Below, piece after piece: positions 7,066 to 32,300 of a stretch of DNA of 64,000 bases. Source of the stretch: Ascidia mentula (lineage: Eukaryota; Chordata; Ascidiacea; Phlebobranchia; Ascidiidae); NCBI GenBank assembly GCA_947561715.1, contig OX387204.1, positions 501,001 through 565,000 of the forward strand. The letters run 5' to 3'. The notes below the pieces were generated by a model. That model searched no databases and was not told where the DNA came from. It was given only the letters and a program-made list of their open reading frames with translations. Every line of letters begins with the position of its first letter. The stretch's first letter is position 1. The translations under genes were made by a program, and so were the position numbers.

Positions 7066-7640
7066 GCAACTATTCACATGAACATTATTTAAATTTTTTT
7101 TAGCTAAAACAACATTATCAACATCATCAATAGTGGCAACTTCCAGTTCAACCCAACAAGTAACTTGTACAGTAACTGGTTACTCAAACCCACAAGCAAG
7201 ATGGTTCAGGTAACAATCCTTACCTTGTTATAACAAGTTCTGTGAGTTTATCTGTTACAGAGAAACAAACCAAGTTACCACATCATCATCATCCAACATT
7301 TACCAAAGTACCAACATAAATGTTGATTCTTACACTTCTCGATCAATTCTCTACATACAACGTAGCACTGTAGGAAGTGATGGGGGACAATATGTGTGTA
7401 GAGCAACAAACTGGAATGGTGGTGGAAATACTGACATCGCATTAACTGTTAATGATGAGAAAATCGAAACTTCAATGACTTTTATGTGCATTCCCATTAA
7501 CATCAAAGGTACAACTTGTTTAAAGTTTTTGCAAGCATTCAAACATCTCCATCTCAACATGTTGCTACAATTGGAGTTCAGCAAATATTCACATGTACTT
7601 CATATGGTTACCCAATACCAACTCAAATAACATGGATGAG

Positions 7641-8306
7641 GTGAGATGTCTCATAGACGCATGTTTTGACCTTGGTCATATATTTGTGTTGCCATCACCT
7701 CAGCTATGTTTGATCAATTTCACATCACAATGCTGATTGCAATAAGTTGTCTCCACTATGAGTGTCCAAAACCAGTGGATTACACAACAAATTTCACGAT
7801 TTTGCTTCAATTTTAAGTCTCCTGGCTTACCCAAAGTTTTTATAAACTTTACTGTGTTAAATCGATGTTTAATGAGAATAAATGGCACCAGCACTAGCCA
7901 AGAATTACATTTACGCATCGATCAAACACAAAGTTTGTAAGGCATGGCTTTCTTGTATGTTACCAACTTTTAGTAAAATTAATCAAAAAGATTGGCTTCC
8001 CTGACACTTTGTCTTGATGATGCTAGCGCAATGAGTCTCGTTAGTCTTGTTCAAAATAGAATAGAATCGAATAGAATCAAATAGAATAGAATAGAATGAT
8101 CAGAAAGGCGAAAGCGTTGCTCTATAAACCGGAAGTCATGTGATGTGCGATATTGTAAGAGAAAGGCAGTGTGTTCGTAAATACCATGTGGATAAGTCTC
8201 TTGGGGCATTATTTAAAGATAAAGTGCCCCTGTCAAACAAAAAATCCCCCAATGATGGAAAACGGAAAAAGTTCTTATCAAAACAGTTCTAATTTGGTTT
8301 ATCATA
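7641..8306. other. spacer between copy 0 and gene A
   Basis: No exon of the family is found here, although all intact members continue with a second Ig2 exon within about 350 bases. Apart from the pentamer repeat near 8055, I see nothing functional. Confidence 0.5.
8055..8098. repeat. (AATAG)n microsatellite
   Basis: Tandem AATAG units with a few substitutions. It lies beyond the point where copy 0 is cut off and may relate to the deletion or recombination that truncated it. Confidence 0.8.
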
Positions 8307-8502: not shown

Positions 8503-11500
8503 GTAAGTTTTGATGTATTGTATGTATATACATATATGCTTGGGTAAATATTAGACTATCAATGAATTTGCATGTGTATTATCAATTATACCAATTTATT
8601 ATGTCATAGATGGATCAGCATGTCAAGGTCGTTATTATGTTCTTTCCACCACAACTGCAACATATACAAATGCTCAAACAGCTTGTACAAATGGAGGTGG
8701 GGAACTGACAAGTATTCCTGATGAAGAAACTCACAACCAACTTGTGACACAAGCAAATGGGAAGATTGGGAATGGATGGGGCACCATTGTAGTCATCAGT
8801 AAACCCTGACATTCACTGAATTTATCTGTTGTACTTAATGCATGTTTTCACAGCTGCTTATACTGGAGGTCGTAAAGTGGGGAATCAATTTCAATGGCAA
8901 GATGGGACAGTTTATGCCAGTATGAGCTCAGGTATGTATTTTATTTTCTCTTTTTTGAGGTACCAATTGCAATGAGGTTTTTGGGCTTGCAGGCAATGTT
9001 ATATGCAGTAGAACTTGTTCAATCCTGAATTTGTCTGACAAATTTGTTTGGATAAGGCTACTGTCCTAATTTTGTGAAAGCCTAAACATTGTAATATTTT
9101 TTTTAATTGTGTGCAGTAAGTTATAGCACATGTTACGTGCCTATTACCCAAAGAGCAGTGGGCAAATTGTCTGTCATGTGCAGAATAATAACATCTGTAG
9201 CTCAATGTAACTAATCTGAATCCACCAAAATACAGATTACAAGATGTTAGCAAAAAAACTTTATTTGAAAATAATGAAGATCTGGATTAAATATTTGTTA
9301 TATCTTAAGATTTTTGTTAAGAAAGGAATATGAATAATTTCTTCCTCCATCTTCAAACATATCAAGCAAATTTCTGGATAAACTGAATCTGGATTAACCA
9401 AGCTCTATTTTATACATTTTTCTCCCCAAAAATTGCCTATTAATTACTTAAAAGATTACAGTAAAATAAACTTAGGACAGTGATTCCCAACTTGAATTCT
9501 ATCGCATACCACTTCAAATTCCTGCACAGTTGCCACGGACCACCTAATCATTTCATCTAAAAAAAAATTATGGCACAACTGAGTACCATCTTTGAGCCTT
9601 GTTTTGATACCAATGTTTGAGTAACAGCCTAATATGAGTGTATAATTTCTAAATTATTTTAAACTGTTTAGTTTATAGGCTATATTGTTAGTACCAAACA
9701 CATTTGTCAAATGTTCTCGTGTACCACCTGGATGACTTTAGCATACCACCGGTCAGGAACCACTAACCCTGTTTGCATGGCCAAGTCGACTTGATGTTCA
9801 ATTCAATTTGTAAACTGGTCATGTGATTTTCAAATTCGACGCCGAAAACAACAAATTTACATGGGCTTTTAAGTCAGCTTTAGTTAAGCTGTCTAGAGCT
9901 GACAGGATGTATCAATATTTGTGATATTAGCTTCAAAGAAAAGTTATTGCCAGTTAGGTTACCTTAGTATAGTTTTTGCAAATATATCTTTAACAATCTA
10001 AAAATCCAAGTGAGTTTTGTTGCCAGATATATAATAGTTGATTTAACTGGAAGCTGTCCTAAACTATCAGTTAAACTGGGTTACTGACTTAGGCGATGTA
10101 ACATCCATCCCAATAAAGAAGGCAAAATAATGTGGGCATATTTTAGGTAAATGTGCCACACAAAAAAGGTTTGAGAACCAGCGACTTATAATAGTAATGC
10201 AGCCCCATTTTTTGGATGATCAGTACCTATGATGAGAAAAACATGCTTAAATGCTTTTTTGGGTCTTCTGATTCCAAGATGATTTAATTGTGTACAACCA
10301 CTGTTTTTTACCAAAACAGTTTTTTAATCAAATTCAGATTAACCCAAATTCTACTGCTGTAAATTTCATGTTAATATTAGGGATGCACCGAAAGTTCGGT
10401 TTGCCGAATTTATTCGGCCGAAACTAAGGTTTTCGCAATTATTCGGTTTCGGACGAATATTTCTGCAAAATTCGGCCGAAACCGAAACTTTCTTACTGCA
10501 TGTTAAGCTGATACGCAAAGTTTAGAAAATGTTAGAATCCTTGTTTAAACTGTACAAATGTCTTCGTTTCATTTGTTTATTTTCAAAGAATGGATAAAAA
10601 TCAAGTTATAGCAGTTGGAACAAGACGAGGTTATTCTTTAAGCGCCAAAAAAGGCTGTATGATAGGATAAGATCTAATCCAGTACATCATGTTTTGTTTA
10701 AATTTATTGCGTTGAAAGAGATGGATGCCAAAATTAGTTTCGGTTTATTCGGCCGAATTAATTCGGCAACTTTTGCCGAATATTCGGTTTCGGCCGAATA
10801 TAAAAATAGCTGTTTCGGTGCATCACTAGTTAATATGACATTAAACTATTTGTATAATTGATTGATAGTTGAAATATGTGTTGTGCAATGCACACCTGAA
10901 TTAATGGTGATGTTTAAAAAGCACACTGATTAAATGGTGATGTTTTAGTGTTTCAACCACCAAGCAAAAATAATGCATTGTATTTTTCCTAGGTTCATGG
11001 AGCACTACTGGATATGCAAATTGGTTTACTGATGATACCCACACAACAAATACACCATCAAATGGTGGAGATTGTATGACATTTTATGGATTGCGCCAAA
11101 GTGGGGTTCATATGTGGACATGGCGAGATCTTCAATGCAATGTCCCACGTCATTATATTTGTTCACATACAGGTATGTGTTAATCCGATGTTTTGCCAAA
11201 ACATAATTTATATGCTGTACTGATATCTGGGTATAAAGGGATCATATTTATTGGTAGGGAATAAAAACATTCTAAAGCAGGGAATAGTTTTTGTTTTAAC
11301 TACTTTGTGGATTTTCAATAATCCAGTTGTTGGTCAGTATTTGCAGTAATTCTTATTTTCAAGCATTTTTTAATGGTTTTCTTTCCGAATCTGGGAGTTG
11401 CAAAGGTTTTTTCAAAAGATCACATAGACTTAAACAAGAGGAATTGAAGCTCATAATCAAACAATATGATTTAAATGCAGTTTGTTAGAAATTAAGTAGT

Positions 11501-14500
11501 AGTAGTGCAAAAATGCAGTGAAACAATGGAATGAACGTTTTAAATTTACTAAATTTGGTTCTCACTATCTTTAAATTTTGACCTCTTTTTTAGTTGTTTC
11601 AGTTAGAGTTGCTATGTGGACTTGGTAGGTTTATTTGTGGTGACATTTATCATAATATTTTTTCTATATTAGGTGACAGAGTGATTTATTTGGACAAACC
11701 AACATACAGTTCTGTACCTGGGCAACAGTATTCTATAATAATATCAATATCCCACCTACATATACAACCACTTGATCTATACTACAAGTTTAATGATGGA
11801 AGCAAAACCTTAATTACAAGTGGTTTTACTGGAACAAGTCATACTTATACTCTCACTATGCCTTCAAGTTCTAATTCAATTACAATCAGTGGTGAAAGTT
11901 CTGTAACATCATGTTCTATATCTGCCACAAGTCAACTTAAGCAAGGTAGAGTTTGCAATAAATTTCCAACAACTAAACTTTGTGATTATTATCATTATAG
12001 ATTTTTCAAGCGCAATCTTAACCATAACCGTAAGTTTTTTTGTGCCTTAATTTCTGATAATTGTAGCCTTCTTCTGTAATCCAGGTAAAATTCCTGACAG
12101 TATTTTTAGCCTTAATTTTGAAACAGAAACTAATTAGGAACACAACTCACGAGTTTTCTCATAATTCTGAGTATAAATAGACTGGCCCATATTGTTATTA
12201 ACACTGTCATGTTAAAATAAGACGTTCGACAAAAACTTACTGATGATGGCATAAGTTTTTGTCGAAACGTCTTTTTTAACATGACAGTGTTAATAACAAT
12301 ATGGGCCAGTCTATTTATACTCAGAAACTAATTAAAAATGAGATTTAAAATCAACTATTAAAATTAATTTCAACTATTCATGTAAACATTCTTCATATTT
12401 TTAGTCAAGACAACATTATCAACAACATCAATAGTGGCAACTTCCAGTTCAACCCAACAAGTAACTTGTACAGCAACTGGTTACTCAAACCCACAAGCAA
12501 GATGGTTAAGGTAACAATCCTTACCTTGTTATAACAAGTTCTATGAGTTTATCTGTTACAGAGGAACTAACCAAGTTACCACATCATCATCATCCAACAT
12601 TTACCAAAGTAGCAGTGTCACTGCTCAATCAATTTTCTACATACAACGTAGCACTGTAGGAAGTGATGGGGGACAATATGTGTGTAGAGCAACAAACTGG
12701 AATGGTGGTGGAAATACTGACAGTACACTAACTGTAAATGGTGAAAAAACCAAAACTCCCATCTGATTTTGTATCCTTTCTCACTGACATCATCATCCTA
12801 AATTTCATTAATGTTTTTTGTAGTTGCTGCAAGCATTCAAACATCTCCATCTTCACATGTTGTTACAATTGGAGTTCAACAAATATTTAACTGTAATTCA
12901 TATGGTTACCCAATACCAACACAAATAACCTGGATGAGGTGAGATGTGGGGTGGATGCATTGGTTCGAACTCTTGATGAAAGCATGAAATGCCACACTTT
13001 TGTGACAAGACTTTGTCCTAATGTTATGTGATGCACAAAATGCACTTTTGATTAGCTGCATTTTTTTTAATTATGCACATCTAATGGCTTTGCTCTAAAA
13101 GTTTATGACATGGATCAAAACAAAAACATTTTAGTTTGAATCAAGAATGTGTTTGGGTTTTTCTAAGGTGTTCTCTTTGACAAATAGTATAAAAGATATC
13201 AAATTTCCTTAAAATGAGAACGATTGGTTTAATTGCCCATCAGCTTATTGATGATGTTGTTGTTGTTTCAGAAATGGAGTCCGTGTAAGTTCCAGTGGAA
13301 ATATTCACCAAACATCACAAGTAACAACATCATCACAAAACAAAGTAGAAAGAAAACTTTATGTCACACTTCAAGATATTAGTGAGGCTGGACAATATAC
13401 ATGTAAAGTTTCAAGTAATGTTGCTGGTGGAAGTGACAAAACAAGTAACATACAAGTTCAAGGTATGTTTGGCAAATTATTGAAAATATATAAAAACTAC
13501 ATTAATTTTTTTCTCTCAGTTGGTGCCAACATTGCAACAACTCCTGTGTTGGTATTAACCACAGTTGGTGAGCAGAAAATATTCACATGTATTTCATATG
13601 GATTTCCTACATCTCAAATAACATGGCAGAGGTAGGAGAAAGATCATGTAGCATTTTGTCATGAAAAGTTATTTATGATTCAAAACAGAACATAAGTGAG
13701 TCTAGTATTGTTTTGATATAAATAAATTGTTATTTTACATGAAGGATTTAATATATCTAAAGCCAATTATTGAATAAATACATTGGGTAGCCTATTACTA
13801 AATACTCATTAGGTTAAGACTAATCCAAAAAAGCCAATATATCATAAATAAAGTTTGTATGTATTGAAGCAAGATTACAGCTCTGTGTTGGGTCAATTTG
13901 AAATATATTTTATTAATTGTGTATTTAATTTCATTGCAGGTGCTTGGTCACTATATGTATAACTGTTGCATGTATAATACTTCAGTGGATCATATCAGTT
14001 AATATTTTTTTAAATTAGTTTTTAAAAATCCTGTCTGTTACTGTAGAAATGGAGTCAGTGTAAGTTCCAGTGGAAATATTCACCAAACATCACAAGTAAC
14101 AACATCATCACAAAACAAAGTAGAAAGAAAACTTTATGTCACACTTCAAGATATTAGTGAGGCTGGACAATATACCTGTAGAGTTTCAAGTAATGTTGCT
14201 GGTGGAAGTGATAAAACAAGTATCATACAAGTTCAAGGTATTGTTTGTTTTGCTATTTCGAAACTAGTTGAAAATTTGTTATCAGTCACAGTTTAAATAG
14301 AATTTCAACACTGCCACCAACTATGAAAAAATTAGACATTTTAAGTTTATTTGTTTCATTTTTGGGTATTTAAGGAAAAACGAAATATTTTTTATGCACT
14401 CAACATCATAGTTTGTAACATGGGACACTGATTGTGTTTCAGTTGGTTCTTCTATCAATACATCTCCAACCTCACTTGTAGCAACGCTTGGAGTTCAACA

Positions 14501-17500
14501 AATATTTACATGTACTTCTAATGGATCTCCTTTGCCACAAGTTACTTGGTTGAAGTAAGTAAACATGATTAGTTGTTGAAATTTGGTTATGTAATAATAT
14601 CATGTTTTCCAGCATTATATTTTTAGTTGTTATTTAAAGGTAAATTAAGCAATATTTCCCAAGTGCAGGAACATAATTTATTTGTTTTTATTTAAGCTTC
14701 TTTATTTCATATTGGTGTTTGCATGGATATTTTAACAAAAATGTTTTGAAACTGAACTAAACTAGGGTGTTTTTTCATAAAACTCTAGAGATACAGTTTC
14801 AGTTGGTTCAAGTGGAAATATTCAACAACAAACAACAACATCACAAAATACAAAAACTGTAAAACTTTATGTTACACTTCAAGATATTAGTGAGGCTGGA
14901 CAATATACATGTAAAGTTTCAAGTAATGTTGCTGGTGAAAGTGATAAAACAAGTAACATACAAGTTCAAGGTGAGATTAAAAGAATTAATCTATCACTTT
15001 TATTTGTGCAACTAATTATTTATGATTAGTTGCTGCAAACATCATCACATCACCAACCACACATATTTTCACATCTGCAAGTCAACAAATATTCACATGT
15101 ACTTCATATGGTTATCCCACACCTCAAATAACATGGATGAGGTGAGATGCAAATAAATAACAGACAATCAGTTTACTATTGTTTGGAATTTACTAAAAAA
15201 TCTACTAATATGCCAGTATGGAATTCTAATAATTAAATGTGATAAGTAATGCATCTTTTGTGGCCTTGATGACTTTTGTTTGTGAAGAAAAAAAAAGTAT
15301 CTTACACAATTCCACTTAAACTGTTAAACACTCAATCATATTTTTTGAGTTGATCTCCCACCAACTTACTAACAAGTTGTTGGCTTTTCTAGAAATGGAG
15401 CTAGTGTAAGTTCCAGTGGAAATATTCACCAAACATCACAAGTAACAACATCATCACAAAACAAAGTAGAAAGAAAACTTTATGTTACACTTCAAGATGT
15501 TAGTGAGGCTGGACAATATACATGTAAAGTTTCAAGTAATGTTGCTGGTGGAAGTGATAAAACAAGTAACATACAAGTTCAAGGTGAGATAGTGTATTGC
15601 TTACTAGATAAGTAGTGGAAGCAATGATAGTTGGTCATGGTTTGTTTACTTGAAATTGTGTTTGTTTACATCAGGTTCAGAAATTATCACCACTGCTCCA
15701 AAATTGCTAGTTTTTGCGATGCATGAAACGAAAACTTTCACTTGTAATTTTACTTCTTATCTCAGCTTAAAGATCAATGCTGTGGTTTGGATGAGGTAAT
15801 CTTGTAATGGACTTTTTTGTTGGTTTTGTTAACTTTCAAAATTATTTTCAATTGTTATTTGCAATTAATTTTGCAGGAATGGAGTGAACATAAGCACTTC
15901 ATTAAATGATGGAATTTACCAAACTACTGAAGTTAAAGTGGAAAGAAATATTACCAGAAAACTTTATGTTAAACTAAACCATGTTAGTGAGGCTGGTAAT
16001 TATGCTTGTACCACCATAGCAACTGACAGTGGACCAAATCTAAGCAGTAACGTACAAGTCCATGGTAAGTAATGTTGTGTGTTTTTTTGTGAGCTTGTGT
16101 TCTAACAAAAGCCTTTTCCACAGTTGCTGCAAACATCAGCACATCTCCATCTTTACATATTTTTACTCCACGAGACAAACAAATATTTACATGCACATCA
16201 TATGGTTTCCCTATACCTCAAATATCATGGTTTAGGTTTGTTAACATTGCAACATGTATATGTGCTTGTTTAGTTTCAATGCAAAAATACTGCATACATT
16301 TGTAGAGGTGCATATCCTCAGGAATTAAGTTCTACAAATATTTACCAAAAACCACAAGTAGACTTACTTTCACTTAACAAAGCTGTGAGAGAACTTGATG
16401 TTACTTATCAATATATTGAAGATGCAGATATTTATACATGTAAAGTTTCAAGTAATGTTGATGGTGGAAATGATAAAACAAGTAACATACAAGTTCAAGG
16501 TAACAAATATGTACTGTGTGAAATAATCCTGTGTTAGGTTTTAACATGAAAGAAAACCAAGAACCATTTGGCAAAACTTTGCAGAGCATTCAAAGTTGGC
16601 TTTAAGTTCTTAACTTTAAAGATTCACAACAAAAAGGGTAAAAAGATTTTCCCAATGTGCTCAAAATATTTTTCCCTTCACACAAAATGATAGCAGTGTG
16701 TCATAAGATGGAGTTAAATATCCTTTCTTTTTGTCACTGATATTATATTTCTTGTTTAAAGTTGCAACAAACATAAGCACTTCACCAAAGAGTCAAGTTG
16801 TTACCTTTGGAAAACCAACAATATTTGAATGTTCAACATATGGATTTCCAAGGAGAGTACCAAACTGGTTTAGGTGTGAAAATTTGTTACTGTGAAATAG
16901 GGGCTCTAGGTTTATGTTTTGTTTTTGAAGAAATGGAAAACAAATGGGTTCTGATGTTGGCAACATTTATGCAATTTCGCCACTGGAAAAATATTGGTCA
17001 ATTCAAAAGTATGTAAGAAAACTTAACATTACACTTCAACATATTAATGAGAGTGGAAATTACACATGCCAAGTTGACAGTAACCTTGGTGGTGGATTGA
17101 TATTGTATGAAAATATTCAAGTTCAAGGTGAAATTGTGGTTTGTATGTGACCTTGTAAAGTTGTAATGTGCATTCTTTTCATAAGTTGCTGCAAACATCT
17201 CGATTTCAACACACAAGATATTGGTTAATGAATACAATGATGTGTTTACAGTTGAGTGTGTTTCTTATGGATTTCCTACACCCACTCTTAGCTGGATCAG
17301 GTAACTTCCTGACTATTAATAACTCGTAGGTGTAATGTTGCACAGTGCATAATATTACTGGCACTGTCTTTTAATGATAAGTAACACTGTTGTTAATTTA
17401 TCAATCTATAAAAATTACTATTTCAAAATATACCAATGCTATAATGCTGTTATTAACAGACACAATAAAATTTGTAAGTTGTGTAAAGTATTAGTTTGTT

Positions 17501-20500
17501 GCGTATAGTCATTAAATTTCTTTTGTTTAGGTGCTAATTTGTGTTATGAAACATTACATACATTTGTCATACAATAACTAAGTTTGTGCTTTGCCACTTG
17601 ACCTACAAAGTTTACTGCGTTAATTTAATTTTGTTTTTATATTCAAATAAAAACTTACTACACTAATTATCTTTTTGTGTTTATAGAAATGGTGTTGTAT
17701 CAAACACAATTTCATCACCTGTACATCAAACAACATCTACTACTGGAAGTTACAAGACAACATCAACACTGACTTTAACACAAATAGGTTCTTCACAAGC
17801 TGGGCAATATAAATGCATTGCATCCAATATTCCTGGTGATCCTGTTAGGGAGGCAATACTGTTGATTATATGTGAGCTTGTTTGGAATATTTTTCACTAT
17901 AACCAGTGTAGATTTGCCATTGGGACATTTTTTTATTAAATTACACTGTTTCTCATGAAATCATTTTTAGTAAAATATGTTCACTTTAGCTTTGAATTTA
18001 TTTAAGTAACTGCTGATGACATGCCTTTTGTTGCAGCAAAGGTTCCAGGTGTCGAGGAACACAATGGCCAATATTATGTTGTTTACAATGCAACACAAAA
18101 TTATTCCTCCGCATTCAAACAATGTAATACCAGAGGCGCAAGTTTGGCAAACCAGATATTTCTGAACAACTTCCTGTTAACGCAAGGAAAATGGATTAAA
18201 GGTCATTTAAATTGACTTTTTTTTACCTCTAAAAGCAAATTTACAACTTTAGCAATAATTAGGATTCCGATTACTAAAAACTTTGTTTGCAGAAGTTGTC
18301 TTCTATAAAAACAGCTTTTTTTAAACCAAACAAATGGCAAATATTACACAAACCTGATATTGATACAAACGTTACTTCATCTCCAGATGTTGGTAAAGTT
18401 TTCAATCAATCTTTGTGTAGAGTTTATGTTGGAATTAACCAAACTATCAACACAAGCTGTAATGAATTGCATCCATTTGTGTGTTTATTATCAGGTATTT
18501 TCACAAGATAGATATCTGTGTTGATGACATTTTTAATGCTGACATTTGTAGGGGTTGAGATTATTGAAACAAGCAAGTGTTATTATGACAAAGTTGTTGT
18601 AAAGTGGAGAGATGGGACAAAATACAATGGAACAATAACTTACACCTTATCTGTGTTTAACTCCAACATGTCAGTTAACATCAGCAAACAGATCACACAA
18701 AACTCAACATCAAACTATGAATATTCAACATATGTTGAAAATCTTCCAACTGACACAAACTTTACAGCAACGGTAAGTGAGTGGAGGTTGTCCAAAAATT
18801 ACCTTGTGCAATGAAAATATTTTTGTTATTTCAGGTTAAACTGCTTTCCACATATTTTGGATACAATCCAACCTTTCAAAAACCAGCACTTACTTCAAGT
18901 TTGACACAAAACTTGTCTGGTGAAATGATTTTACTGTCATCAGTTTGCAGAATTCAAATTAATATTTCTGAAAGTTCTTTGGCATCCATAACACGCATAC
19001 AGGTTAGATTTATTCAAGTGCAAGATGTTTTTTATTGTGGTTTTAACTGTCTCCTTTCAAACCTAACCTTTTCAGCTGTTTGTTACAATGTATAGAAGAA
19101 ACAATGTAACAAATACATCGCTTACTGTAAAACCATCATCCTCTATAACACATGATGTGAATGTTACTGAAATTGAAAGTTCGAAAGTAACTTTACAAAT
19201 TTCATCTGTTGATTGTGAAAACTTAAAGTTTGAAATTAAAGGAAATTGTTCAAAGCCAGAAGGTGAGATAATTTTGACTTTGCTTGACAATTTTTGCTTG
19301 ACGTTCGTTTGATAGAAATTTTGTTCAGAAAAAGAAAACAATTTTAACTCTAATAGTTTTGCCGGCACTGGGGTTATTGCAGCATCAATTGGATCTGTTA
19401 TGTTGTTTCTTGTTATTGTTCTAATTGTGGGATTTATTTACATAAAACGGTCAGTATGTATTGACTAAGGTTGACAAAATAAAAATCTTCCATGCAACTC
19501 TATATTATGTGCTGTATGAACCTATCTAATTATATGTTATAGTTTTTTTGTTTATTTAATACTGGATAATTTATTCAGGAACAAGTTGCAGAGTTTGTTT
19601 GTCAGAAGTTCAACATCCAAGAAAAATGTTGGAAAAACTGATGAAATTGAATTAAATGACGAAACTCAAATAAGTGAAAAACAACTTGAGGAATTTTATA
19701 TAAACAGCAAGAAAACTGGACACAAAAAACTACAAACACAATTTCAGGTTGTCTATCTATTAAAAAATCCTGTTACCTTCTTGTTTTTATGTTGTTTATT
19801 CAGGTTATACAAGAAAGTAAAGTCTTGAAAACAGTGAAAACATCATCCATAGAAATAGTGGAAAATCCTTATGAAATTGTGTCAAGTATGTTTTCGAGTT
19901 TTATTAATTGCCTTCTTTGCATTTAACTGTTGATTTGCCCAAAGGCTCATCCAGGAATGTAAGAAAAGTAACACCAACCTTTGCTCACACAAGTGGAGAT
20001 TACATTGATTTTACTTTTAAACAAGTAAAGAATTAGATTTAGTTGATCACATATCAACTTTACTGAAAATATTACCTAAATTCCAGGAAAAATCTGAAAT
20101 ATCTGATAAATGGAAAGTTGTTGAAAATCCAACTTATGAAAACATGGGTCAGTTCTGGACAATGGTTTGGAATGAAAATGTCCATGTAATAATTTGGTTG
20201 GACGATCGTAGTGGAAGGAAGGTTAGGTTGGATTGTGACATCACAATTCATATTTCTTTAGACAATATAACAGATACTTTTCTGTTGTATAGAATCCATG
20301 TGTCCAATATTGGCCTCAAAATGGTCGGACTAAAGAATATGAAACCACCAGAGTGTGTTGCAATGATGTCATTAACTGTGGTTGTTACATCATAAGGAAA
20401 TTTAGTGTTGAAGAATCAGTTGGAGATTATGCAACGGTTTGTGAATATTAGTTGTTTGATTGTTCATAACATGTTTTATGATATGTTATTTGATATCAGA

Positions 20501-22582
20501 AAGTAATTTTTTGATTTATATGTTAGGAGTTACGTCACATCACACAATATCACTTCTACGAGTGGCCAGCATACAGCACTCCTACGACATCTAGTGGTCT
20601 TGTGCATCTGATTCGACAAGTTAAAATCAATATGAAAGAAATTCAATCAGGAAGTGGAAAGATATTTCCTGTTGTAATTCACTCAACGTAAGAATGTTGG
20701 TTTTTATTCAAGTGTTGAGTTGTTTTATTTTTTACTTTGATGCAGACGTGATTGTGGACGAACTGGAACATTTATCGGACTTGATTATTTGATCGACCAA
20801 ATGAATGAAACACAAACTATTGACGTTTATCACTTGGTCTACCACATGAGGGAGCAAGGGATGGAGATTGTTAAAAATGTGGTAAAATGACATAACTGAT
20901 ATGCAGCAGTCTATGTTGTATGAAAATACCTGGTATAGCATTCCTAGTAAAAGAATCATATTTAATTACCGTTCAACAGCCATATATGCAGCAAGTTTTA
21001 AAAAAAACAAATGATATTTTTGCAAAAATCACTTTTTCAAAATGAGTTTAAGTTTATTTTTTTGTGTTCAGAGAAATTGTTTTGTTTCAGGAACAATACA
21101 TATTTCTGCACAAAGTAATGGCAGAGTTATCAGTGTTTGGAGATACTGACATGAATGTAGAACAATTCAAATCTGTCATTGATGGAATAAACAGGTTAAA
21201 AAAACAACTTTCATTTATTTTTGTCCATTTTTTTTAACCAAGCCTTCAAATTTTAGATCTCCACAGCAAAACACAGTTACAACCCAGTTTGAATTGTTGC
21301 AACACTCATTGGATGAAGGAAATGTTTCTCCTGTTACATGTGATACGACCCAACAAGATAACACATGTGAGTAATAATTGAAGTTTTGCATTGGTTTTTA
21401 TTTTAGTGTTAAAAAAAAAGATTGCAATAAAATGTTTTCATGCAGATGAGACGTTTACAAACACACAAAATTATGAAAACATCTCAACCAACACAAACCT
21501 TGCATACAAACTAAAAGTAAGTTTTATTTGAACATTTCCTGCAAATGGTATTTGCAACTATAGAAAGACTTGTTTCAATCACTAAATGTTGTGGTGTGAA
21601 AACAATTTATGTTTGTTACACTTCGTTGCTAAAATAATTACTTGTTTTTTAATGAAAGCGATATTTTAGGGAAACAGAGGCCACACTATTCTCCACGATG
21701 CAACTCATGGAAATTCCAATCAATTCTGGAAGCTAATTTTGAATCAAAATGTTGAACTGATTATTATAGTCGGTCAAGCTGGTGTAAGTTTGTGTTTTCT
21801 TTAAAAATTACACAAAAGCTTCATCATGAAGTTCTAAGTTTTTATCAACAAAACCAAGTTCTTGTTACAGAATCGTGGATTAATCCCAAGTAGTTTAAAT
21901 ATAGAGAAGCAGTATGGAGTTACTTGTGTGACACTTATAAGTAAAGATTATCAAGCTGTTCAACATGGAATCAGCAAGTTTATTGTGGAAAATGTGGACA
22001 ACACTAAGAAGGTAAACAGTTTAGTTTTCATGAAATCCTTGTTTTCTCTGCCCTGTGTTGCACTAAAATTGACATTGTCAAAATCACAATTGTGTTTTAA
22101 CATGTGTAACAGTAAACCTATCTTTGCAGATTGAAACCAAACTTGTTTGTTTTGATTCTTGGGAATCCAGCCAAAGTTATTGTGAAGCAAATCATCTCAT
22201 GCAGTTTGTAAATCTCATTGAAACTTTGATTGGGGAAAATAAGAATGGAAATGTTCTCATTTACTCAAGGTGGAAGACTTGTTTTCTCAAAGATGTGTAA
22301 GAAATGACGTTTATTAATGTTTAGTGATGGATTGACAAGATGTGGAGTCTTGTGTTGTTTGTGGAATCTTGTTTCTCGGTTTAAAGCGGAGAATATGATT
22401 GATATTTTCACAACATTCAAAGATGTGAAGGAATCACTTCCAAGTTTTAATATTGACCTGGTAAGTTTGTTGTTGATTAAAAGTGTTGGAACTTCCTTAT
22501 TAAGTTCTGTTTGTTTTAGGAAACTTACAAGGCTTGTTATCACACGGTGGATGGAGTGGTGAAATCTCATGAGAATGTTTAA
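8448..22582 (+). CDS. gene A: lectin/9-Ig/FN3 receptor with two dead phosphatase domains
   Basis: Predicted 2105-residue type I membrane receptor. Exons: 8448-8502, 8610-8798, 8854-8931, 10993-11172, 11673-11945, 12405-12510, 12562-12740, 12824-12938, 13272-13462, 13520-13631, 14047-14237, 14443-14554, 14789-14970, 15030-15141, 15393-15583, 15675-15795, 15877-16064, 16124-16235, 16306-16499, 16762-16873, 16931-17127, 17186-17300, 17687-17871, 18037-18201, 18315-18494, 18552-18772, 18835-19002, 19076-19262, 19329-19449, 19579-19747, 19804-19885, 19945-20024, 20087-20221, 20293-20436, 20527-20687, 20746-20881, 21091-21194, 21257-21366, 21446-21516, 21670-21783, 21871-22011, 22130-22269, 22325-22460, 22520-22582. 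The lengths sum to 6318 with consistent phases. Outside the cell: CTLD, beta-rich domain, nine Ig, second CTLD, FN3-like pair. Inside: tyrosine motifs and tandem PTP folds without catalytic residues. The ATG is chosen because it opens a signal peptide. Two unusual borders: a GTCATT donor at 18202 and an internal acceptor before 18315. Likely a surface recognition receptor; the ligand is unknown. Confidence 0.85.
8610..11172 (+). CDS. gene A CTLD1 (three exons)
   Basis: Exons 8610-8798, 8854-8931 and 10993-11172 encode one long-form C-type lectin domain of about 149 residues. Visible landmarks are CQGRYYVLSTTTATYTNAQ, the TAC..GGGELTSIPDEETH helix-2 region, FQWQDGTVY (the WxWxDG motif) and C-terminal Cys residues (GGDC, LQC, YIC). 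The usual Ca-site-2 EPN or QPD triplet is replaced by TPS and WND by WRD, so classical Ca-dependent mannose or galactose binding is not predicted. The 55-base intron between the first two exons is conserved in all copies. The third intron is enlarged by mobile elements. Confidence 0.8.
9478..10183. mobile_element. hAT-type element remnant in gene A intron 3
   Basis: Begins CAGTGATTCCCAAC and ends GGTTTGAGAACCAGCG, imperfect inverted ends of the hAT class. ACTTA-like words flank both sides as a decayed target duplication. An internal stretch ending GGTCAGGAACCACTA looks like another hAT terminus, so the element may be composite. No transposase frame is seen. The same element sits at the same intron position in gene D, so it predates the A/D duplication. 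Confidence 0.55.
10378..10828. mobile_element. non-autonomous hAT element (451 bp) with 8-bp target duplication
   Basis: The ends are TAGGGATGCACCGAAA and the complement of TTTCGGTGCATCACTA, with further CGAA/TTCGGCC-rich inverted stretches inside. The 8-base word GTTAATAT directly flanks both sides (10370-10377 and 10829-10836). Gene D keeps an empty site at the matching intron position (CATGTTAACATAAC near 47229). No protein frame exists, so this is a MITE-like passenger. Confidence 0.85.
11673..11945 (+). CDS. gene A beta-rich domain exon
   Basis: A single phase 1-1 exon of 91 codons (GDRVIYLDKPTYSSVPGQQ..., then GTSHTYTLTMPSSSNSITI). It is Ser/Thr-rich with alternating hydrophobic residues, as in a beta sandwich, and has one Cys (VTSC). 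It is present and nearly identical in all six copies. I cannot assign a named family; a divergent Ig or FN3-like fold is the best guess. It links CTLD1 to the Ig row. Confidence 0.6.
12137..12321. mobile_element. foldback element with about 72-bp near-perfect arms
   Basis: Two inverted arms (about 12167-12238 and 12249-12324) can pair almost completely; the loop is the short GATGATGG region. The 13-base word CAGAAACTAATTA flanks the insertion on both sides (12124-12136 and 12322-12334). The matching intron of gene D lacks the insertion. The arms differ at only about two places, so the insertion is young or kept similar. Family unassigned. Confidence 0.75.
12405..17871 (+). CDS. gene A row of nine Ig domains
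   Basis: Each Ig domain is a pair of exons. Domains: Ig1 12405-12740, Ig2 12824-13462, Ig3 13520-14237, Ig4 14443-14970, Ig5 15030-15583, Ig6 15675-16064, Ig7 16124-16499, Ig8 16762-17127, Ig9 17186-17871. The inner intron falls in phase 2 just after the conserved Trp of strand C (W-M-R or W-F-R). The outer introns are phase 1, so each pair is a movable module. First halves carry FTCTSYGYP-type strand B Cys; second halves carry the GQYTCKVSSN-type DxGxYxC motif. Ig2 to Ig5 second halves are very alike, which points to internal duplication. Likely a stalk and/or ligand-binding region. Confidence 0.85.
18037..18494 (+). CDS. gene A second CTLD-like domain
   Basis: Two exons (18037-18201, 18315-18494) encode VEEHNGQYYVVYNATQNY...KQCNTRGASLAN and, further on, NTSCNELHPFVCLLS. 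This is a shortened C-type-lectin pattern (Cys in helix 2 and paired C-terminal Cys) without WIGL or EPN/WND, so sugar binding is doubtful. The second exon keeps frame only from an AG at 18313-18314; the AG at 18291-18292 would lead to a stop. The donor GTCATT is weak but shared with gene D. Confidence 0.6.
18552..19262 (+). CDS. gene A FN3-like membrane-proximal region
   Basis: Three exons (18552-18772, 18835-19002, 19076-19262). The first half reads as an FN3 domain (KVVVKWRDGTKYNGTITYTL, then VENLPTDTNFTATV). The second half (about 115 residues, with CRIQINIS and SVDCENLKFEIKGNC) is a further beta-rich segment, perhaps a divergent FN3 or the membrane-proximal domain seen in many receptor phosphatases. 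Many N-x-S/T sites suggest heavy glycosylation. Confidence 0.6.
19329..19449 (+). CDS. gene A transmembrane exon
   Basis: One exon encodes a polar spacer, then a helix of about 23 hydrophobic residues (SVMLFLVIVLIVGFIYI) and a KR stop-transfer pair at the exon end. Genes B, C and D have the same exon with the same GTCAG donor. Confidence 0.85.
19579..19885 (+). CDS. gene A juxtamembrane tail with ENPYEIV motif
   Basis: Exons 19579-19747 and 19804-19885. The tail is Lys/Glu-rich (KKNVGKTDEIELN, KTGHKKLQTQFQ), matching the helical region before a PTP domain. It ends in VENPYEIVSS at the place where active PTPs have the KNRY substrate loop; ENPY replaces KNRY. YEIV could also serve as a phosphotyrosine docking site. 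Confidence 0.65.
19945..21194 (+). CDS. gene A PTP domain 1, catalytically dead
   Basis: Exons 19945-20024, 20087-20221, 20293-20436, 20527-20687, 20746-20881, 21091-21194. Fold landmarks follow classical PTPs: SGDYIDFTF (for SDYINA), GQFWTMVWNENV, NPCVQYWP, EQYIFLHKVM. The WPD loop is WPAYSTP (20563-20571 codes WPA). The P-loop reads HSTRDCGRTGTF across the intron 20688-20745, so Ser stands where the nucleophilic Cys belongs while the Arg is kept. The Q-loop Gln is also missing (KNVEQY). Loss of both Asp and Cys predicts no phosphatase activity, with phosphotyrosine binding possibly retained. YENM just before FWTMVW could be an SH2 site. Confidence 0.85.
21257..22582 (+). CDS. gene A PTP domain 2, catalytically dead
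   Basis: Exons 21257-21366, 21446-21516, 21670-21783, 21871-22011, 22130-22269, 22325-22460, 22520-22582. It aligns along its length with membrane-distal D2 domains: NQFWKLILNQNVELIIIVGQ for the FWRM..VMLT strand, IDIFTTFKDVKESLPSF for VDIFQTVKMLRTQRP, ETYKACYHTV at the C-terminal helix. The P-loop is IYSSDGLTRCGV: the His is Tyr, the Cys is Ser, the Arg is kept. The WPD loop is gone (DSWESSQS). Stop TAA at 22580-22582. Confidence 0.8.
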
Positions 22583-23388: not shown

Positions 23389-26300
23389 ATGTATGGAATG
23401 TATTCCTGTTTTGTTTTCTTAATTTTGTTTAGTCAAATAAAAAGAGATGCTGGTAAGCTTTGTACATTTGAATGGGATGATTATTATGTGTCCTTATTTA
23501 TCTTATCTGGTGATTGTCATTATCATATTGTTGTAGATGGGTCAGCATGTCAAGGTCGTTATTATGTTCTTTCCACCACAACTGCAACATATATAAATGC
23601 TGAAACAGCTTGTACAAATGGAGGTGGGGAACTGACAAGTATTCCTGATGAAGAAACTCACAACCAACTTGTGACACTAGCAAATGGGAAAGTTGGAAAT
23701 GGATGGGGCACCAGTGCAACAATCAGTAAACCCTGACATTCCCTGAATTTATCTGTTGTACTTATGTATGTTTTCACAGCTGCTTATACTGGAGGTCATA
23801 AAGTGGGGAACCAATTTCAATGGCAAAATGGAACTGTTTATGTCGCTCTGGCTGGAGGTACTGAGGTTTTTTTCAAAGTTGTAATGAGGTTTTTGGGCTT
23901 GCAGGCGATGTTGCATATAGTAGAATTTGTGTAATTGTGCTTTGACTGACAAATTTATTCAGTTAAGGCCACTATCCTATTTGTGCATAGACCATGCTTC
24001 AAGCCTAACATTATATAATTTTTTTCATCATTCAATTTGAAAAAAGTCATTGTGCAACCTAGCGAACCCAAAAGCATCATAACACTTTTTTACATGCTGA
24101 TTACCCAAAAAGCATTGCACAAATTGACTTTTATCTGTTATTCGATTGATGTTGCAACTAATCCACTCAAGCACAGGCATTTATTTAAAAAAAATTAAGA
24201 TTTGAATTTAATATTTAAGATTTTTGTTAGGAAAGGAAATGAATCAATTCTACCTTCATCTTCAAATGTTTAATCAAATTTCTGGATAACTAAATCCATG
24301 AACCAAAAAAAAAAAATAATGTTGGCAAACTTTTCTTGTTTTCAGCAAATTTTGAAGTCAAATCCAGATTAACCCAAATCTACTGTGTTTATTCCATGTC
24401 AATATGACAATAAATTATATTTGTATGATTTATTGATATTTATTTTACAATTATGTTCTGGAATGCATTTTGTTCCTGACAGTTGTTTAAATTATTAAAT
24501 ATAATATATTTGTTATCTCTGTTACTCACATTTCATTAACTGTAATTATCATATCTTATTGTGATGTTTCTTATCTGCATGATAATGGATAACGATAGGT
24601 CAGACATTTACCCTTAATGCAAAGTTATGCATTGTATTTTTATCAAGGTACTTGGATCAACACTGGATATGCAAATTGGTTTACTGATTCTGCCCACAAA
24701 ACAAATACACCATCAGGTGGTGGAAATTGTATGACATTTCATGGATTATACCAAAGTGGGGTTCGTATTTGGACATGGCGAGATCTTCAATGTGATGTCC
24801 AACGTTATTACATTTGTTATCATACTGGTAAGTGTTTTAAACCAAAATTGTTTTTCCAGAAAATGATTTATTCATTTTATGATGATATCCCAGCATAAAG
24901 GGATTGTATTTATTTGGTGGTGAATTAATGCACTCTAAAGCAAAGAGTAGTTTTTCGTTTAAACTAATTTATAGATTCTAGTTTTTCGTAGCTGGGGATG
25001 GATATCTTGTCAGACAGATTGTTTTACTTTGTGGTAAAATTTCAGCCCCCTGAACAAGATTATTTGTGGTGGCTTTTATGATAATATTTATCCACCTCAG
25101 GTGACAGAGTGATTACTTTGGACAAACCAACATACAGTGCTGTACCTGGGCAACAGTTTACTATCACAATATTAATATCCTACCTATACATACAACCACT
25201 TGATCTATACTACAAGTTTAATGATGGAAGCAAAACCTTAATTGCAAAAGGTTTTACTGGTACAAGTCATACTTATACTCTCACTATGCCTTCAAGTTCT
25301 AATTCAATCACAATCAGTGGTGAAAGTTCTGTAACATCATGTTCCATATCTGCCACCAGTCAACTTAAACAAGGTAAGGAGGTTTTCATTATCATTCTAA
25401 TGCCCTAATGTTTTTTGTGATCTGGCCCTGGCTTTTAATCCTATTGCAACCAGAATACAATTTCTTAATTTCATGGTTAAAGCAGCTATTCACATAAATG
25501 TTCTTCAAAAGTTTTGGTTAGAATAACCTTATCAACCCATCAATAGTGGCAATACATAATTTTCTTTTGTAGTGAAGCATGCACGCAAATAAAAATCTGC
25601 AAGTATTTCTCAGCACCGAAAAATAAAATGGTTTAAACCTCTTTCTTAAACCTCCAAATCTTTTAAGTTAAAACAACATTATCAACAACATCAATTGTGG
25701 CAACTTCCAGTTCAACTCAACGAGTAACTTGTACAGCAACTGGTTACTCAAACCCACAAGCAAGATGGTTCAGGTAACAATCCTTTCCTTGTTATAACAA
25801 GTTCTATGAGTTTATCTGTTACAGAGGAACTAACCAAGTTACCACATCATCATCATCATCCAACATTTACCAAAGTACCAACATAACTGTTGATTCTTAC
25901 ACTTCTCGATCAATTCTCTACATACAAGGTAGCACTGTAGGAAATGATGGGGGACAATATGTGTGTAGAGCAACAAACTGGAATGGTGGTGGAAATACTG
26001 ACAGTACATTGATTGTTAATGGTGAGAAAACTAAAACTTCCATCTGATTTTGTATTCTCTCACAAACATTAACATTTTAACTTTGGTGAAATATTTGAAT
26101 CATTTGTGTTATAAAATGTGTTTCTTTACACCAGGTTCAGATATTGTCACCACTTCTCCAACCTTTCAAGTTTTTGCAATGCATGAAACAAAAACTTTCA
26201 CTTGTAATTTTACTTCATATCTCAGTTTAAAGATCAATGCTGTAGTTTGGATGAGGTAATCTTGCAATGGACTCTTTTGTTGGTTTTGTTAACTTTCAAA

Positions 26301-29300
26301 ATTATTTTAAATTGTTATTTGCAATTATTTTTGCAGGAATGGAGTGAATGTAAGTACTTCATCAAATGATGGAATTTACCAAACTACTGAAGTCAAAACT
26401 GAAACAACTATAACCAGAAAACTTTATGTTAAACTAAACAATATTAGTGAGGCTGGAAATTATACTTGTACCACCATAAGAACAGATGGTGGACCAACTC
26501 TAAGCAGTAACATTCAAGCCCATGGTAAGTATTGATGTGTTGTAGTTTTTTGTGAACTTGTGTTCTAACAAAAGCCTTTTCCACAGTTGCTGCAAACATC
26601 AGCACATCTCCATCTTCACATTTTTTTACTCATGGAGACAAACAAATATTCACATGCACATCATATGGTTTTCCTATACCTCAAATATCATGGTTCAGGT
26701 TTGTTAATATTACAACGTGTATATCTGCGTGTTTTGTGTTAATTTAAGCATACTATATTTGTTTATAGAGGTGAAAATAATCTTAGTGATTCGAGTTCTA
26801 CAAATATTTACCAAAAACCACAAGTTGACTCACTTTCACTTAACAAAGCTGTGAGAGAACTTGATGTTACATATCAATATATTGAAGATGCAGATATTTA
26901 TAAATGTAAAGTGTCAAGTAATGTTGATGGTGGAAGTGATAAAAGACGTCCTATACAAGTTAAGGGTAAGAAATATGTACTGTGTGAAATAATGCTGTGG
27001 TAGGTTTTAACATGAAAGAATACCAAGAACCATTTAGCAAAACTTTGCAGAGCATTCAAAGCTGGCTTTAAGTTCTATACTCTAAAGATTCACAACAAAA
27101 AGGGTATTTTTTTTTTCCCAATGTGCTCAAAATATTTTTCCCTTCACACAAAATGATAGCAGTGTGTTATAAGGTGAAGTTAAATATATTTTTAATTTTT
27201 CACTGATATTATATTTCTTATTTAAAGTTGCAACAAATATTAGTACTTACCCAAAGCGTCAAGTTGTTACTTTTGGAAAACCAACAATATTTGAATGTTC
27301 AACATTTGGATTTCCAAGAAATATTCCAAACTGGTTTAGGTGTGAAAATTTGTCACTGTGAAATAGGGGCTCTAGGTTTATGTTTTGTTTTTGAAGAAAT
27401 GGAAAACAAATTGGTTCTGATGATGGCAACATTTATGCAATTTCGCCACTGGAAAAATATTGGTCAATTCAAAAGTATGTAAGAAAACTTAACATTACAC
27501 TTCAACATATTAATGAGAGTGGAAATTACACATGCCAAGTTGACAGTAACCTTGGTGGTGGATTGGTTTTGTATGAAAATATTCAAGTTCAAGGTAAGAT
27601 TGTGGTTTGTATGTAACCTTGTAAAGTTGCAATGTACATTCCTTGTATTAGTTGCTGCAAACATCTCAATTTCAACACACAAGATATTGGTTAATGAATA
27701 CAATGAGGCGTTTACAGTCGAGTGTGTTTCTTATGGATTTCCTACACCCACTCTTAACTGGATCAGGTAATGCATGTTTGGCTGAAGTTTGTAAAAACTG
27801 AAATTAAATACTTTCTGCTATGATAGCATAGATGTTATGATGATAGAATTATCACCAAAATAAATATGTTTAGAGATGGAAGTAATGTTGGCACCCGTTG
27901 GACATCCCAAGTAAACCAAGAAGTTGTTGTGGAAAACATTTACAAAGTGTCAGCTGTACTAAATTTTTCTTACAAAAGTATCTTCTATGCGGGAAAATAT
28001 GAATGTGTGGCAAGTAATGTTTACAACATCCAATCCAACGCAACAGTTTTAATTGAAGGTGTATTGAAGTAATTTATTTGAAACTATATATAACTCGAAG
28101 CAATACCTTCGGGGTTGATTTTTTTAGAAAGCTTTTGTTAGTGTGGTATGTTTTGGTCAAAGCATAATTAAGGTTAATTTTTTTCTCTATTTAAATCTTG
28201 AAAAGGAAACAATCTGTTAATAATAATGAATTGGTAACTTAGCAGGTATTGTTCTCTTGTCTACAATGATTACTTTTTATGCAGTTGCACTAAACATATC
28301 TCTAAGTAGCAGTGAGGTAACTGTGAAAGATGGAGGGACAAATGTAACATGCACTTCATTTGGTTTTCCAGCCCCTTTTGTATATTGGAGCAGGTTTGTT
28401 TTTTTTACTTTCAAAAATAATGTGTTTTAGGAAATGATATTGTTTACTGTGAAAACAGTAAGTATGACATTGTTTTGCAAGCACATAATAAAGTTTTGAA
28501 GAAAAAATATTTTCAGAAATGGCAGAAATATTTCCAGCACACAGAATACTCACATTTATCAAACAATCTTCAATTCAACACAATTTAAAACAACTTCTAC
28601 ATTGTTTTTTACATCAGTTTTTTTAAAGGATCTTGGTCAATATGTTTGTCATGCAATTCAAACACGTCAAAATGAAATATACATCAGTGTTTCAAAAATA
28701 TTGCAAATCTATGGTGGGTTTTGAGCATTTATCATAACCTAACATATTTGAAACTGTGTATTAGGTAATTATAGGCTGGGAAAATTAAAATTTTAATGTT
28801 GACAACTTACATTTCTTCCATGCACTTCTCAGATATATTTAGTGCAACATCAATTTTGTTGTTGCAGTTGGCCCTATTTACAACGGCTCCAGTGCACCAA
28901 TGGAGTTTGGCCAATCACAAACATTTAGTTGTTCATTTGTTGGTGATCCCACACCTGTTGTAAAATGGAGAATTAATGGCCAGATTATAGAAGGAAATAG
29001 CAACGACCCAGCAGAAATATCATCATTTAGTATAAGCACAACTGAAACATCCACGTTGTCTATAAGAAGTGCTTCTTTATTTGGGGCTAATTCCACAATA
29101 GAGTGTTGGTCAACAAATAAAGTAGGAACGTCCGTCACAAAAACATTTAAGTTGAACTATGGTAAGATTGCTTTTAATCATCATGTATTTTCAGAGTGGT
29201 TTCTAAGTAATATCTCCCTTATCATAATCAAATGTTTACAGATCTACATGAGAGCAATGCTATGTATTATACTTGGGGAGCATCACAGAAAAACCTCTCA

Positions 29301-32300
29301 GATGCTTTGCATGAGTGCATTGATAAAGGAGGAATTCTACCTTCACTGACATTTCTCAATAATTCAATGTTAAAGGGAAAATGGTGGAATGAGTTTAGCA
29401 ATAGTGTCTGGTTTGATGGTAGGAATATTGAACTAATAAAAGTGCTATAAAAATAATGTTTTTTTAACATTTTTCAAGTAATTGTTTTTGCTTACGTTCA
29501 TTACTAAATTAAAATATCTCTGTGAATTTATTTTTCTCACATACAATTTAGGGGGTGATAATACAGTAAACGACACCTTGCTTGATGCAAATTCATCTAA
29601 ATGCAGTACCATCGACCATATGGGCCAAATTATAAATAAAAGCTGTGAAGAAAAGTTTGTTTTTTTGTGCATATTTCCAGGTGTGTTTTGTGTACAAATA
29701 CTTCTTTATTTAACCTATGATGAAATTTCAAAAGGTGTAGAGATTATTGAAACAAGCAAGTGTTATTATGATAAAGTTGTTGTAAAGTGGAGAGATGGAA
29801 CAAAATACAATGGAACAATAACTTACACCTTATCTGTGTTTAACTCCAACGTGTCAGTTAACATCAGCAAACAGATCACACAAAACTCAACATCAAACTA
29901 TGAATATTCTGCATCTGTTGAAAATCTTCCAACTGACGCAAAGTTAACAGCAATGGTGAGTGAGTGAAGGTTGTTGTTCAATAATTGCCTTGTATTATCG
30001 TAGTATTTCTGTTATTTCAGGTTAAACTGTTTTCCAAATATTTTGGATATAATCAAATGTCACAAAAAACAGCACTTATTTCAAGTTTGACACAAAACTT
30101 GTATGGTGAAATGATTTTATTGTCATCAGTTTGCAGAATCCAAATTAATATTTCTAAAATTTTAATGGCATCCATAAAACACGTTCAGGTTAGTTTCATT
30201 TAAACGGAAGAATATTTTAAGTCTAGTTTTAAAACTTTTTCTTCTATTCCAACCAAACATTTTAGCTGTCTATTGCAAAGTATGGAAGAAACAATTTTAC
30301 AAATACATCCCTTACTGTAAAACCATATTCTTCCATAACACATGATGTGAATGTTACTGAAGTTGAAAGTGTGAAAGCAACTTTACAAATTTCATCTGTT
30401 GATTGTAAAAACTTAAAGTTTGAAATTAAAGGAAATTGTTCAAAGCCAGAAGGTGGGAAATTGTGATTTTGCTTGACAATTTTTGCTTGTACGTTATATA
30501 GAAATTTGTTTTCAGACAAAGAAGACAATTTTAACTCTAATAGTTTTGCCAGCACTGTAGTTATTGGAGCATCGGTTGGATCTGTTATGTTGTTTCTAGT
30601 CATTGTTCTAATAGTGGGATTTATTTACATAAAACGGTCAGTAAGTGTTATTTTGAGGTTGATAAAATAAAATATTTAATACATTTCCATGTTACTTGCT
30701 GTATGAGTTTAGTTATATGTTCATAAAACAATATTTTGTTCGTTTAATATCAATTTATTAAACAAATTAGAAAGAGAAACAAGTTGCGGAGTTCATTTAA
30801 CACAAGATCAACATCCAAGAAAAATGGTAAAACTAATGAAATTGAATTAAATGAAAAAACTCCAATAAGTGAAAAACAACTTAAGGAATTTTACTTGAAC
30901 AGCAAGAAAACTGGACACAAAAAACTACAAACACAATTTCAGGTTCTTTGCATAAGTTTTCTCTCTATTTCAAAATCCTGTTACCTCATTGGATTTATGG
31001 TTTTTTTTCAGTTGCTACAAAAATGTAGACCAGTGAAATCGTCATCAGTTGAAATGATGGAAAATCCTTATGAAGTTTTGTCAAGTATGTTTTTGAGTTT
31101 TGTCAATTGTCTTTTTTGCATTTAACTGTTGATTTGCTCAAAGGCTCATCCAGGAATGTAAGGAAAGTAACACCAACCTATGCTCACACGAGTGGAGATT
31201 ACATTGATTTTACTTATAAACAAGTAAAGAATTAGATTTAGTTGATCACATATCAACTTTACTGAAAAAATAACCTAACTTTCAGGAAAAATGTGAAATA
31301 TCTGATAAATGGAAAGTTGTTGGAAATCCAAGTTATGAAAACATGGATCAGTTTTGGACAATGGTTTGGAATGAAAATGTCCATGTAATAATTTGGTTGG
31401 ACGATCGTAGTGGTCGGAAGGTAAGGTTGGATTGTGACATCACAAATCTCATTTCATTTGATGGTACTTTTGTTGTGTAGAATCCATGTGTCCAATATTG
31501 GCCTCAAAATGGACGGACTAAAGAATATGAAACCACCAGAGTGTGTTGCAATGATGTCATTGACTGTGGTTGTTACATCATAAGGAAGTTTAGTGTTGAA
31601 GAATCGGTTGGAGATTATGCAACGGTTTGTAAATATTGCTTTTTTGATTGTTCATGAAAAGTTTTGTAATAGGTAATTTGATATCAGAAAGTAATTTTTT
31701 GATTCTTATGTTAGGAGTTACGTCACATCACACAATATCACTTCACCGAGTGGCCAGCATACAGCATTCCTGCGACGTCTAGTGGTCTTGTGCGTCTGAT
31801 TCGAGAAGTTAAAATCAAAATGAAAGAAATTCAATCTGGAATTGGAAAGATATTTCCTGTTGTAATTCACTCAACGTAAGAATGTTGGTTTTTATTCAAG
31901 TGTTGAGTTGTTTTAATTTTTTACTTTGATGCAGATGTGACTGTGGACGAACTGGAACGTTTATCGGACTCGATTATTTGATCAACCAAATAAATGAAAC
32001 ACAAACTATTGATGTTTATCATATGGTCTACCACATGAGGCAGCAAGGGATGGAGATTGTTAAAAATGTGGTATTATGATGTAACTGATATGTCAAATCG
32101 AGAGGCATTTTGTACAAAATTACCATGGATGTTGTTTCTTTTAAAATTTGGTATTTAAGTATCATTCGCCAACCATGCATGCAGCAGATCTTTAAATTCA
32201 CATTTTCAAGTTTTGCCCAAAATCACTTTTTCAAAATGAGTTTTAGTTTAATTTTTTTGTGTTCAGAGAAATTGTTTTGTTATAGGAACAATACATATTC

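Follow-up and report, generated by a model that had tools for sequence, protein, structure and literature searches.

Why would a genome keep, copy after copy, receptor tyrosine phosphatases that have lost their catalytic residues? The question is raised by a 64,000-nt stretch of chromosome 8 of Ascidia mentula (C72:501001-565000; PMC11109543), referred to here as the window, in which receptor genes follow one another on the plus strand. Within the window, a tblastn domain map places an orphan 5' receptor fragment (4985-7641), with lectin exons, a domain that we call GDRV and an Ig1 exon and without a tail of its own, directly before gene A. The gene A ectodomain and transmembrane segment (TM; 8609-19450) comprise C-type lectin exons, the GDRV domain, an Ig array, remnants of a second lectin, an FN-like piece and the TM, as read from the same map and from Pfam matches in the homologous gene D ectodomain. 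A cytoplasmic tail of 15 exons follows (19579-22582) which, according to the exon model, Pfam and matches to receptor protein tyrosine phosphatases (RPTPs) in the PDB, runs from a juxtamembrane segment through a dead first phosphatase (PTP) domain (D1), a linker and a dead second domain (D2) to the stop codon. Three further units have an ectodomain and TM on the domain map (supplemented by Pfam in gene D) and, in the exon models, a tail with dead D1 and dead D2: gene B (23536-30637 and 30777-33745), gene C (34945-41347 and 41477-44563) and gene D (45653-55934 and 56062-59046). The 5' part of the gene E ectodomain extends from approximately 60048 to the end of the window at 64000, and the domain map and a reading of the arm place its dead tail outside the window, at about 569.2-572.3 kb of chromosome 8. 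Judging by order, strand and the repeated unit, ectodomain, TM and PTP tail putatively form one receptor gene. The best PDB matches of the tail are tandem RPTPs and the TM exon adjoins the tail, as in a two-domain receptor PTP. In Pfam, the GDRV domain matches no family, and the families returned for the FN-like piece are all spurious.

The preliminary description of this locus was anchored at 19945-22582, which corresponds to exons 3-15 of gene A only. We modelled the same 15 tail exons in each of genes A, B, C and D, with borders inferred from DNA only; AG/GT borders and open frames are found in all 60, the last exon of each tail closing with the stop codon, and exon lengths are equal across the four genes except for in-frame deficits of 3 nt in exon 1 and 9 nt in exon 2 of gene B. 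A gene finder trained on these exons, and hence no independent proof of them, called the same inner tail exons in all four genes, but missed exon 1 of gene B and fused the genes into a single model, from which we took the exon calls alone. The Pfam Y_phosphatase family matches gene A over both D1 (1.3e-56) and D2 (9.8e-17).

The D1 WPD loop reads WPAYS in genes A to D, and the P-loop reads HSTRDCGR (A), HSTCDCGR (B and C) or HSTRGCGR (D). In gene A, exon 6 (20527-20687) encodes the WPA loop and the first half of the P-loop (H-S-, with Ser at the nucleophile position), and exon 7 (20746-20881), identified from the exon model and dS comparison, encodes the second half (-T-R-D-C-G-R-T-G). The D2 P-loop, encoded in gene A by exons 13-14 (22130-22460), reads YSSDGLTRCG in A, B and D and YSSNGLTRCG in C, and there is no WPD in D2. 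Alignment with phmmer to PTPRE (2jjd), PTPRA (6uzt) and LAR (1lar) chains fixes the register, setting WPAYSTP onto the WPD loop, HSTRDCGRTG onto the P-loop HCSAGVGRTG and, for D2, YSSDGLTRCG onto the D2 P-loop of PTPRA 6uzt. Motif reading and these alignments agree with the preliminary description, which had reported WPA for WPD and a Ser nucleophile in D1 of A to D, and YS-x5-R without a WPD in D2 of all four.

Relatives of these genes were found by searching the 195.8-Mb genome with the D1 core and by reading the chromosome arm, which together gave seven further close genes. Two are dead: gene E, the following member of the tandem array (plus strand, ~570 kb), with WPAYS and HSTRGCGR, and R762 (760-775 kb, minus strand), with WPASG and QSKRDCGR. 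The claim that every full gene of the array carries the lesion thus extends to five of five tandem genes, gene E included, although the latter runs off the window. The remaining five, R653, R670, R694, R715 and R736, lie on the minus strand at 651-752 kb, inverted relative to the array. All five have WPDHG, HCSAGAGR, TQGP and QT in D1, KNRY in open frame and a hydrophobic, TM-like stretch; their D2 reads LDR(N/T)GL(T/K)RSG, likewise lacking the Cys. A motif table of the 11 genes therefore has WPA and Ser in 6/6 dead genes and WPD and HCSAGAGR in 5/5 genes that we refer to as active, since their D1 looks intact and is predicted to be a phosphatase. In our spliced alignments gene A, as a control, was returned at 595/595; the models of the active genes are poor in exons 2, 3 and 9-11 (with a stop within these in R653 and R736), and exons 3-4 of R762 are merged. 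An active classical PTP has a Cys nucleophile and a WPD Asp in D1, and genes A to E and R762 have Ser and Ala at these positions; because the lesion is common to A to D and, beyond the window, to E and R762, it is not a chance event. With a PTP fold, lost catalytic residues and a tail under selection (see below), the six would be classed as receptor pseudophosphatases.

The genome as a whole contains at least 211 PTP-domain stretches (150 of 532 candidates were scored), mostly in tandem clusters on C1, C2, C67, C71, C72 and C73, which amounts to a very extensive expansion of receptor PTPs. It also has two GH6-domain stretches, against none in 14 control genomes, as would fit a tunicate; tunicate cellulose synthase carries GH6. 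We read by eye a non-random sample of 20 short stretches from the other clusters, picked for spread. The nucleophile is Cys in 17 of these (16 HC, one LC), Ser in none and unread in three (L035, L045 and L048), and the WPD loop is WPD in 11, WPG in six and unread in three. Among the loci read, Ser at the nucleophile occurs only in A to D, E and R762. Since no Ser was seen in the 20 sampled stretches, the double catalytic loss seems to have arisen in this clade. A cluster at C72 16.9-17.4 Mb and C73 4.46-4.50 Mb has many D1 domains with WPG(C/Y)G and a retained Cys (six of the 20 sampled, as well as L027 and L028); the general acid has been lost separately there. Four loci (L036, L037, L041 and L042) combine a D1 P-loop of the form HC/SDGAGRTG (LC in L042) with WPDH(G/E/K); we take this SDGAG form to resemble PTPRN. 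Pairs of matches with equal or near-equal scores lie ~22-24 kb apart at C73:4463435 and 4485881, C1:9558833 and 9581172, and C72:670664 and 694356, and suggest recent duplication of PTP blocks.

Dead and active genes share one series of ectodomain exons on the tblastn domain map, and synonymous divergence in the four outermost exons that were used for the ectodomain tree is no greater between the classes than within them. Values of dS within dead genes, within active genes and between classes are 0.04, 0.08 and 0.06 for CTLD_a, 0.26, 0.25 and 0.25 for CTLD_b, 0.10, 0.13 and 0.11 for GDRV, and 0.09, 0.09 and 0.08 for Ig1b, repeated Ig exons having been paired by best match, a procedure biased towards low dS. 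By contrast, 13 of the 15 tail exons have a dS between the classes that is saturated or at least 1.2; exon 15 (1.03) and exon 7 (0.24) fall below this. In the tail tree (819 columns), a single branch splits dead from active genes with 100/100 support, whereas in the ectodomain tree (786 columns) the classes are interleaved, the label changing five times; the dead genes do not form one group in any of 200 bootstrap trees, and the AU test rejects the best ectodomain tree in which they form one clade (p 0.0017). Inner branches of the ectodomain tree are weak, as expected after sequence exchange, none being strongly supported; the bootstrap is unsettled. The GDRV exon has 12 close copies genome-wide, all on this arm, corresponding to the 11 genes and the orphan fragment. 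It begins GDRVISLDKPT..., looks beta-rich and lies at 11672-11944, 25100-25372, 36675-36950 and 48182-48454 in the window; 12 further, weak copies (26-33% identity) are found elsewhere on chromosome 8.

These patterns argue that the outer ectodomain has been homogenised across the tail classes by gene conversion, a signal that recent swaps of whole 5' halves would mimic. Homogenisation is uneven. The second lectin exons have dS of 1.38 and 1.20 within dead genes and 1.31 and 0.79 between classes; those of gene C, for example (39902-40024 and 40309-40449), are diverged amid homogenised exons and could be a variable spot. The FN exon of active R694 is 99.5% identical to that of dead A, 98.1% to that of dead C and 99.0% to that of dead E, and FN dS is 0.11 within dead genes versus 0.39 between classes. 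FN2 and the TM have no match in the five active genes on the tblastn domain map. Sequence exchange thus seems to stop short of the membrane, the point from which the members of a receptor pair need to differ. Linked genes, highly similar ectodomains and distinct tails, the properties of paired receptors, are all found here, with the exceptions of CTLD2 and FN2/TM.

A second difference between the classes lies in the D1-D2 linker, which in gene A is encoded by exons 9-10 (21257-21516 in the exon model) and contains YETF and YENI. YE(T/L)F is present in 6/6 dead genes and YEN(I/M) in 5/6 (R762 has HENI); a three-frame scan found neither in the corresponding linker stretch of any of the five active genes. 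YxN resembles Grb2-type sites and YxxF resembles sorting signals, and by consensus such linker motifs may have SH2-docking roles.

The best-known paired receptors are those of vertebrate immunity, in which the members of a pair differ in short tyrosine motifs, with ITIMs in short tails opposed to activating motifs or adaptors. Tails that appear phosphatase-active or phosphatase-dead behind a shared ectodomain suggest the signature of paired receptors, and we think it fairly probable that the array makes up one half, the phosphatase-dead one, of a family of paired receptors with a shared sensor and active or dead tails. Eleven genes on one chromosome arm display one kind of lectin-GDRV-Ig-FN ectodomain. 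The five with an intact-looking D1 should strip phosphate when engaged; the other six, A to E and R762, lack catalytic residues in D1 and D2. Exchange between the two halves would keep the outer ectodomain alike while the tails stay apart, and both halves should consequently see the same kind of ligands. The dead receptor would most likely be a competitor of its active counterpart for both ligand and partners, in the way that PTPRU competes with PTPRK, and it may also signal itself through the linker tyrosines YE[T/L]F and YEN[I/M], which would be beyond the reach of dephosphorylation by its own tail. The paired reading would thus have the genes expressed, the ligands shared, the five phosphatases truly active, the linker tyrosines docking partners and the two classes producing opposite outcomes. 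A more specific version, which is possible and which we advance tentatively, is an ascidian immune or self-recognition system of paired receptor phosphatases, in which a lectin-Ig ectodomain is shuffled between dephosphorylating tails and dead tails that act in docking, activation or as decoys.

Searches of the open-access literature yielded no account of receptor phosphatases that act as pairs, or of this receptor family. If the paired reading is correct, a tunicate pairs its receptors by turning their own phosphatase catalysis off or on, with the sensor kept alike by exchange; if the immune or self-recognition version is also correct, paired-receptor logic would reside in the phosphatase itself rather than in ITIM and ITAM motifs. 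One cluster with six dead and five intact-looking D1 domains is also a natural set for asking what pseudophosphatase receptors do. The nearest evolutionary precedent is CD300A/CD300C, and the nearest biochemical one PTPRU, a vertebrate precedent for a dead D1 beside active paralogues with an ectodomain of a different type (the R2B architecture). PTPRN and PTPRN2 (IA-2) are also receptor PTPs with an altered WPD and PTP loop, but they keep the Cys, act in secretory granules and have a different ectodomain.

As described in the source cited, which also names PTPRN and PTPRN2 as inactive, both PTP domains of PTPRU are dead, active paralogues exist, and PTPRU binds substrates of its active paralogue and is proposed to be a decoy or scaffold that competes for them (PMC7320164). 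Unlike A to E and R762, with their Ser and WPA, PTPRU keeps the active-site Cys (with WPE, GSRQ and a Thr in the PTP loop; PMC7320164), and it is a single gene, whereas here six genes carry the lesion and have an ectodomain homogenised with that of the active genes. CD300A/CD300C and other vertebrate paired receptors are likewise described as linked genes with similar ectodomains preserved by gene conversion and with divergent tails (PMC12447643; PMC3533184). The opposition proposed here is instead between a catalytic and a non-catalytic PTP pair in the same receptor. The fester and FcoR allorecognition receptors of Botryllus also form an ascidian family in which one locus encodes both putatively activating and putatively inhibitory tails, but the account cited describes ITIM, hemITAM and core tyrosine motifs with Ig and sushi domains, and mentions no PTP domain in the tail (PMC12065747).

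The preliminary description proposed instead that the tail binds or protects phosphotyrosine. In this form, the dead D1 would be a natural trap that holds phosphotyrosine sites and shields them from phosphatases, like laboratory trapping mutants. Indeed, the changes that define substrate trapping, Asp to Ala and/or Cys to Ser, are both present in 6/6 dead genes, which also retain the P-loop Arg, the pTyr-loop Tyr (in NPY or SPY) and the Gln of QY. The rest of the pocket speaks against a trap: the QGP motif is gone in 6/6 dead genes, KNRY is cut to NPY or SPY, T/K-R/C-D/G-C-G replaces S-A-G-A-G in the P-loop interior, and in genes A, B and C the Q loop has Lys in place of its first Gln. The PTPRU pocket is described as abolished by fewer changes (PMC7320164). 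We therefore consider a trap unlikely; the loss of catalysis in both domains and the retention of the fold under selection stand, and phosphotyrosine binding is one possible role.

The dead tail is maintained under purifying selection. Genes A to D have 132.5 non-synonymous changes in 1396.7 sites and 90.5 synonymous changes in 376.3 sites, a dN/dS of 0.39 (binomial p 3.1e-11, a rough value, since changes common through conversion are non-independent), and mean pairwise dN/dS is 0.58 in the juxtamembrane region and exons 1-3, 0.36 in D1, 0.22 in the linker and 0.32 in D2. This ratio and the unbroken exon frames uphold the argument that retention of the fold reflects function rather than decay. 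Selection across the whole tail is also consistent with a plain scaffold or decoy, in which surfaces of the tails away from the pocket hold partners, and the dead genes neither oppose their active neighbours nor signal in their own right; PTPRU is described as binding substrates of its active paralogue although its own pocket does not work (PMC7320164). A scaffold alone would, however, leave unexplained both the sharing of an ectodomain with active genes while the tails stay apart and the confinement of the linker tyrosines to the dead class, and we regard it as quite unlikely.

Alternatively, A to D could be redundant copies in slow decay, their frames preserved by gene conversion and the youth of the array. 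Sequence exchange is evident, and a truncated orphan unit lies within the same array, but the introns of A to D have diverged by 0.13-0.24 with 16-30 indels per pair, against 0.05-0.08 with 0-2 indels, all in frame, in the exons, so that intron divergence is two to four times exon divergence in most pairs. The frames of dead E and R762 are still open at a tail dS of about 0.5-1.5 from A to D. Together with the dN/dS, these observations make decay very improbable.

A further possibility is that true transcripts use other exons, with the Asp and Cys. WPD(H/F/Y/E)G and KNRY do not occur in any of the six frames of the 64-kb window, and, apart from weak noise, exons 6 and 7 of an active gene have no matches in the window beyond the four copies of each already identified; a scan for HCxxGxGR is no test for an intact P-loop, since the P-loop is split by an intron. 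Thus, no alternative exon in the window offers a Cys, and although the exon borders come from DNA only, the agreement of six genes and an assembly QV of 64.9 (PMC11109543) make a splicing or assembly artefact hardly credible.

Lastly, exon 7 is the sole tail exon with DNA similarity across the classes. It starts with different codons in the two (ACGTGATTGTGG in gene A, which is dead, and TGCTGGTGCGGG in active R670), and its tree still sets dead and active genes apart (97/95). If this likeness reflects conversion, the dead P-loop has survived beside it; otherwise, it may reflect constraint on synonymous sites. Both exon 7 (20746-20881, 31935-32070, 42722-42857 and 57222-57357 in A to D) and exon 14 (22325-22460, 33488-33623, 44310-44445 and 58791-58926), each 136 nt long in every copy, are low in synonymous divergence relative to their surroundings, and outside A to D the introns flanking them are unalignable by eye. 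Exon 14 has a dS of 0.12 within dead and 0.20 within active genes, and for both exons the low dS would fit either exon-sized conversion or synonymous constraint.
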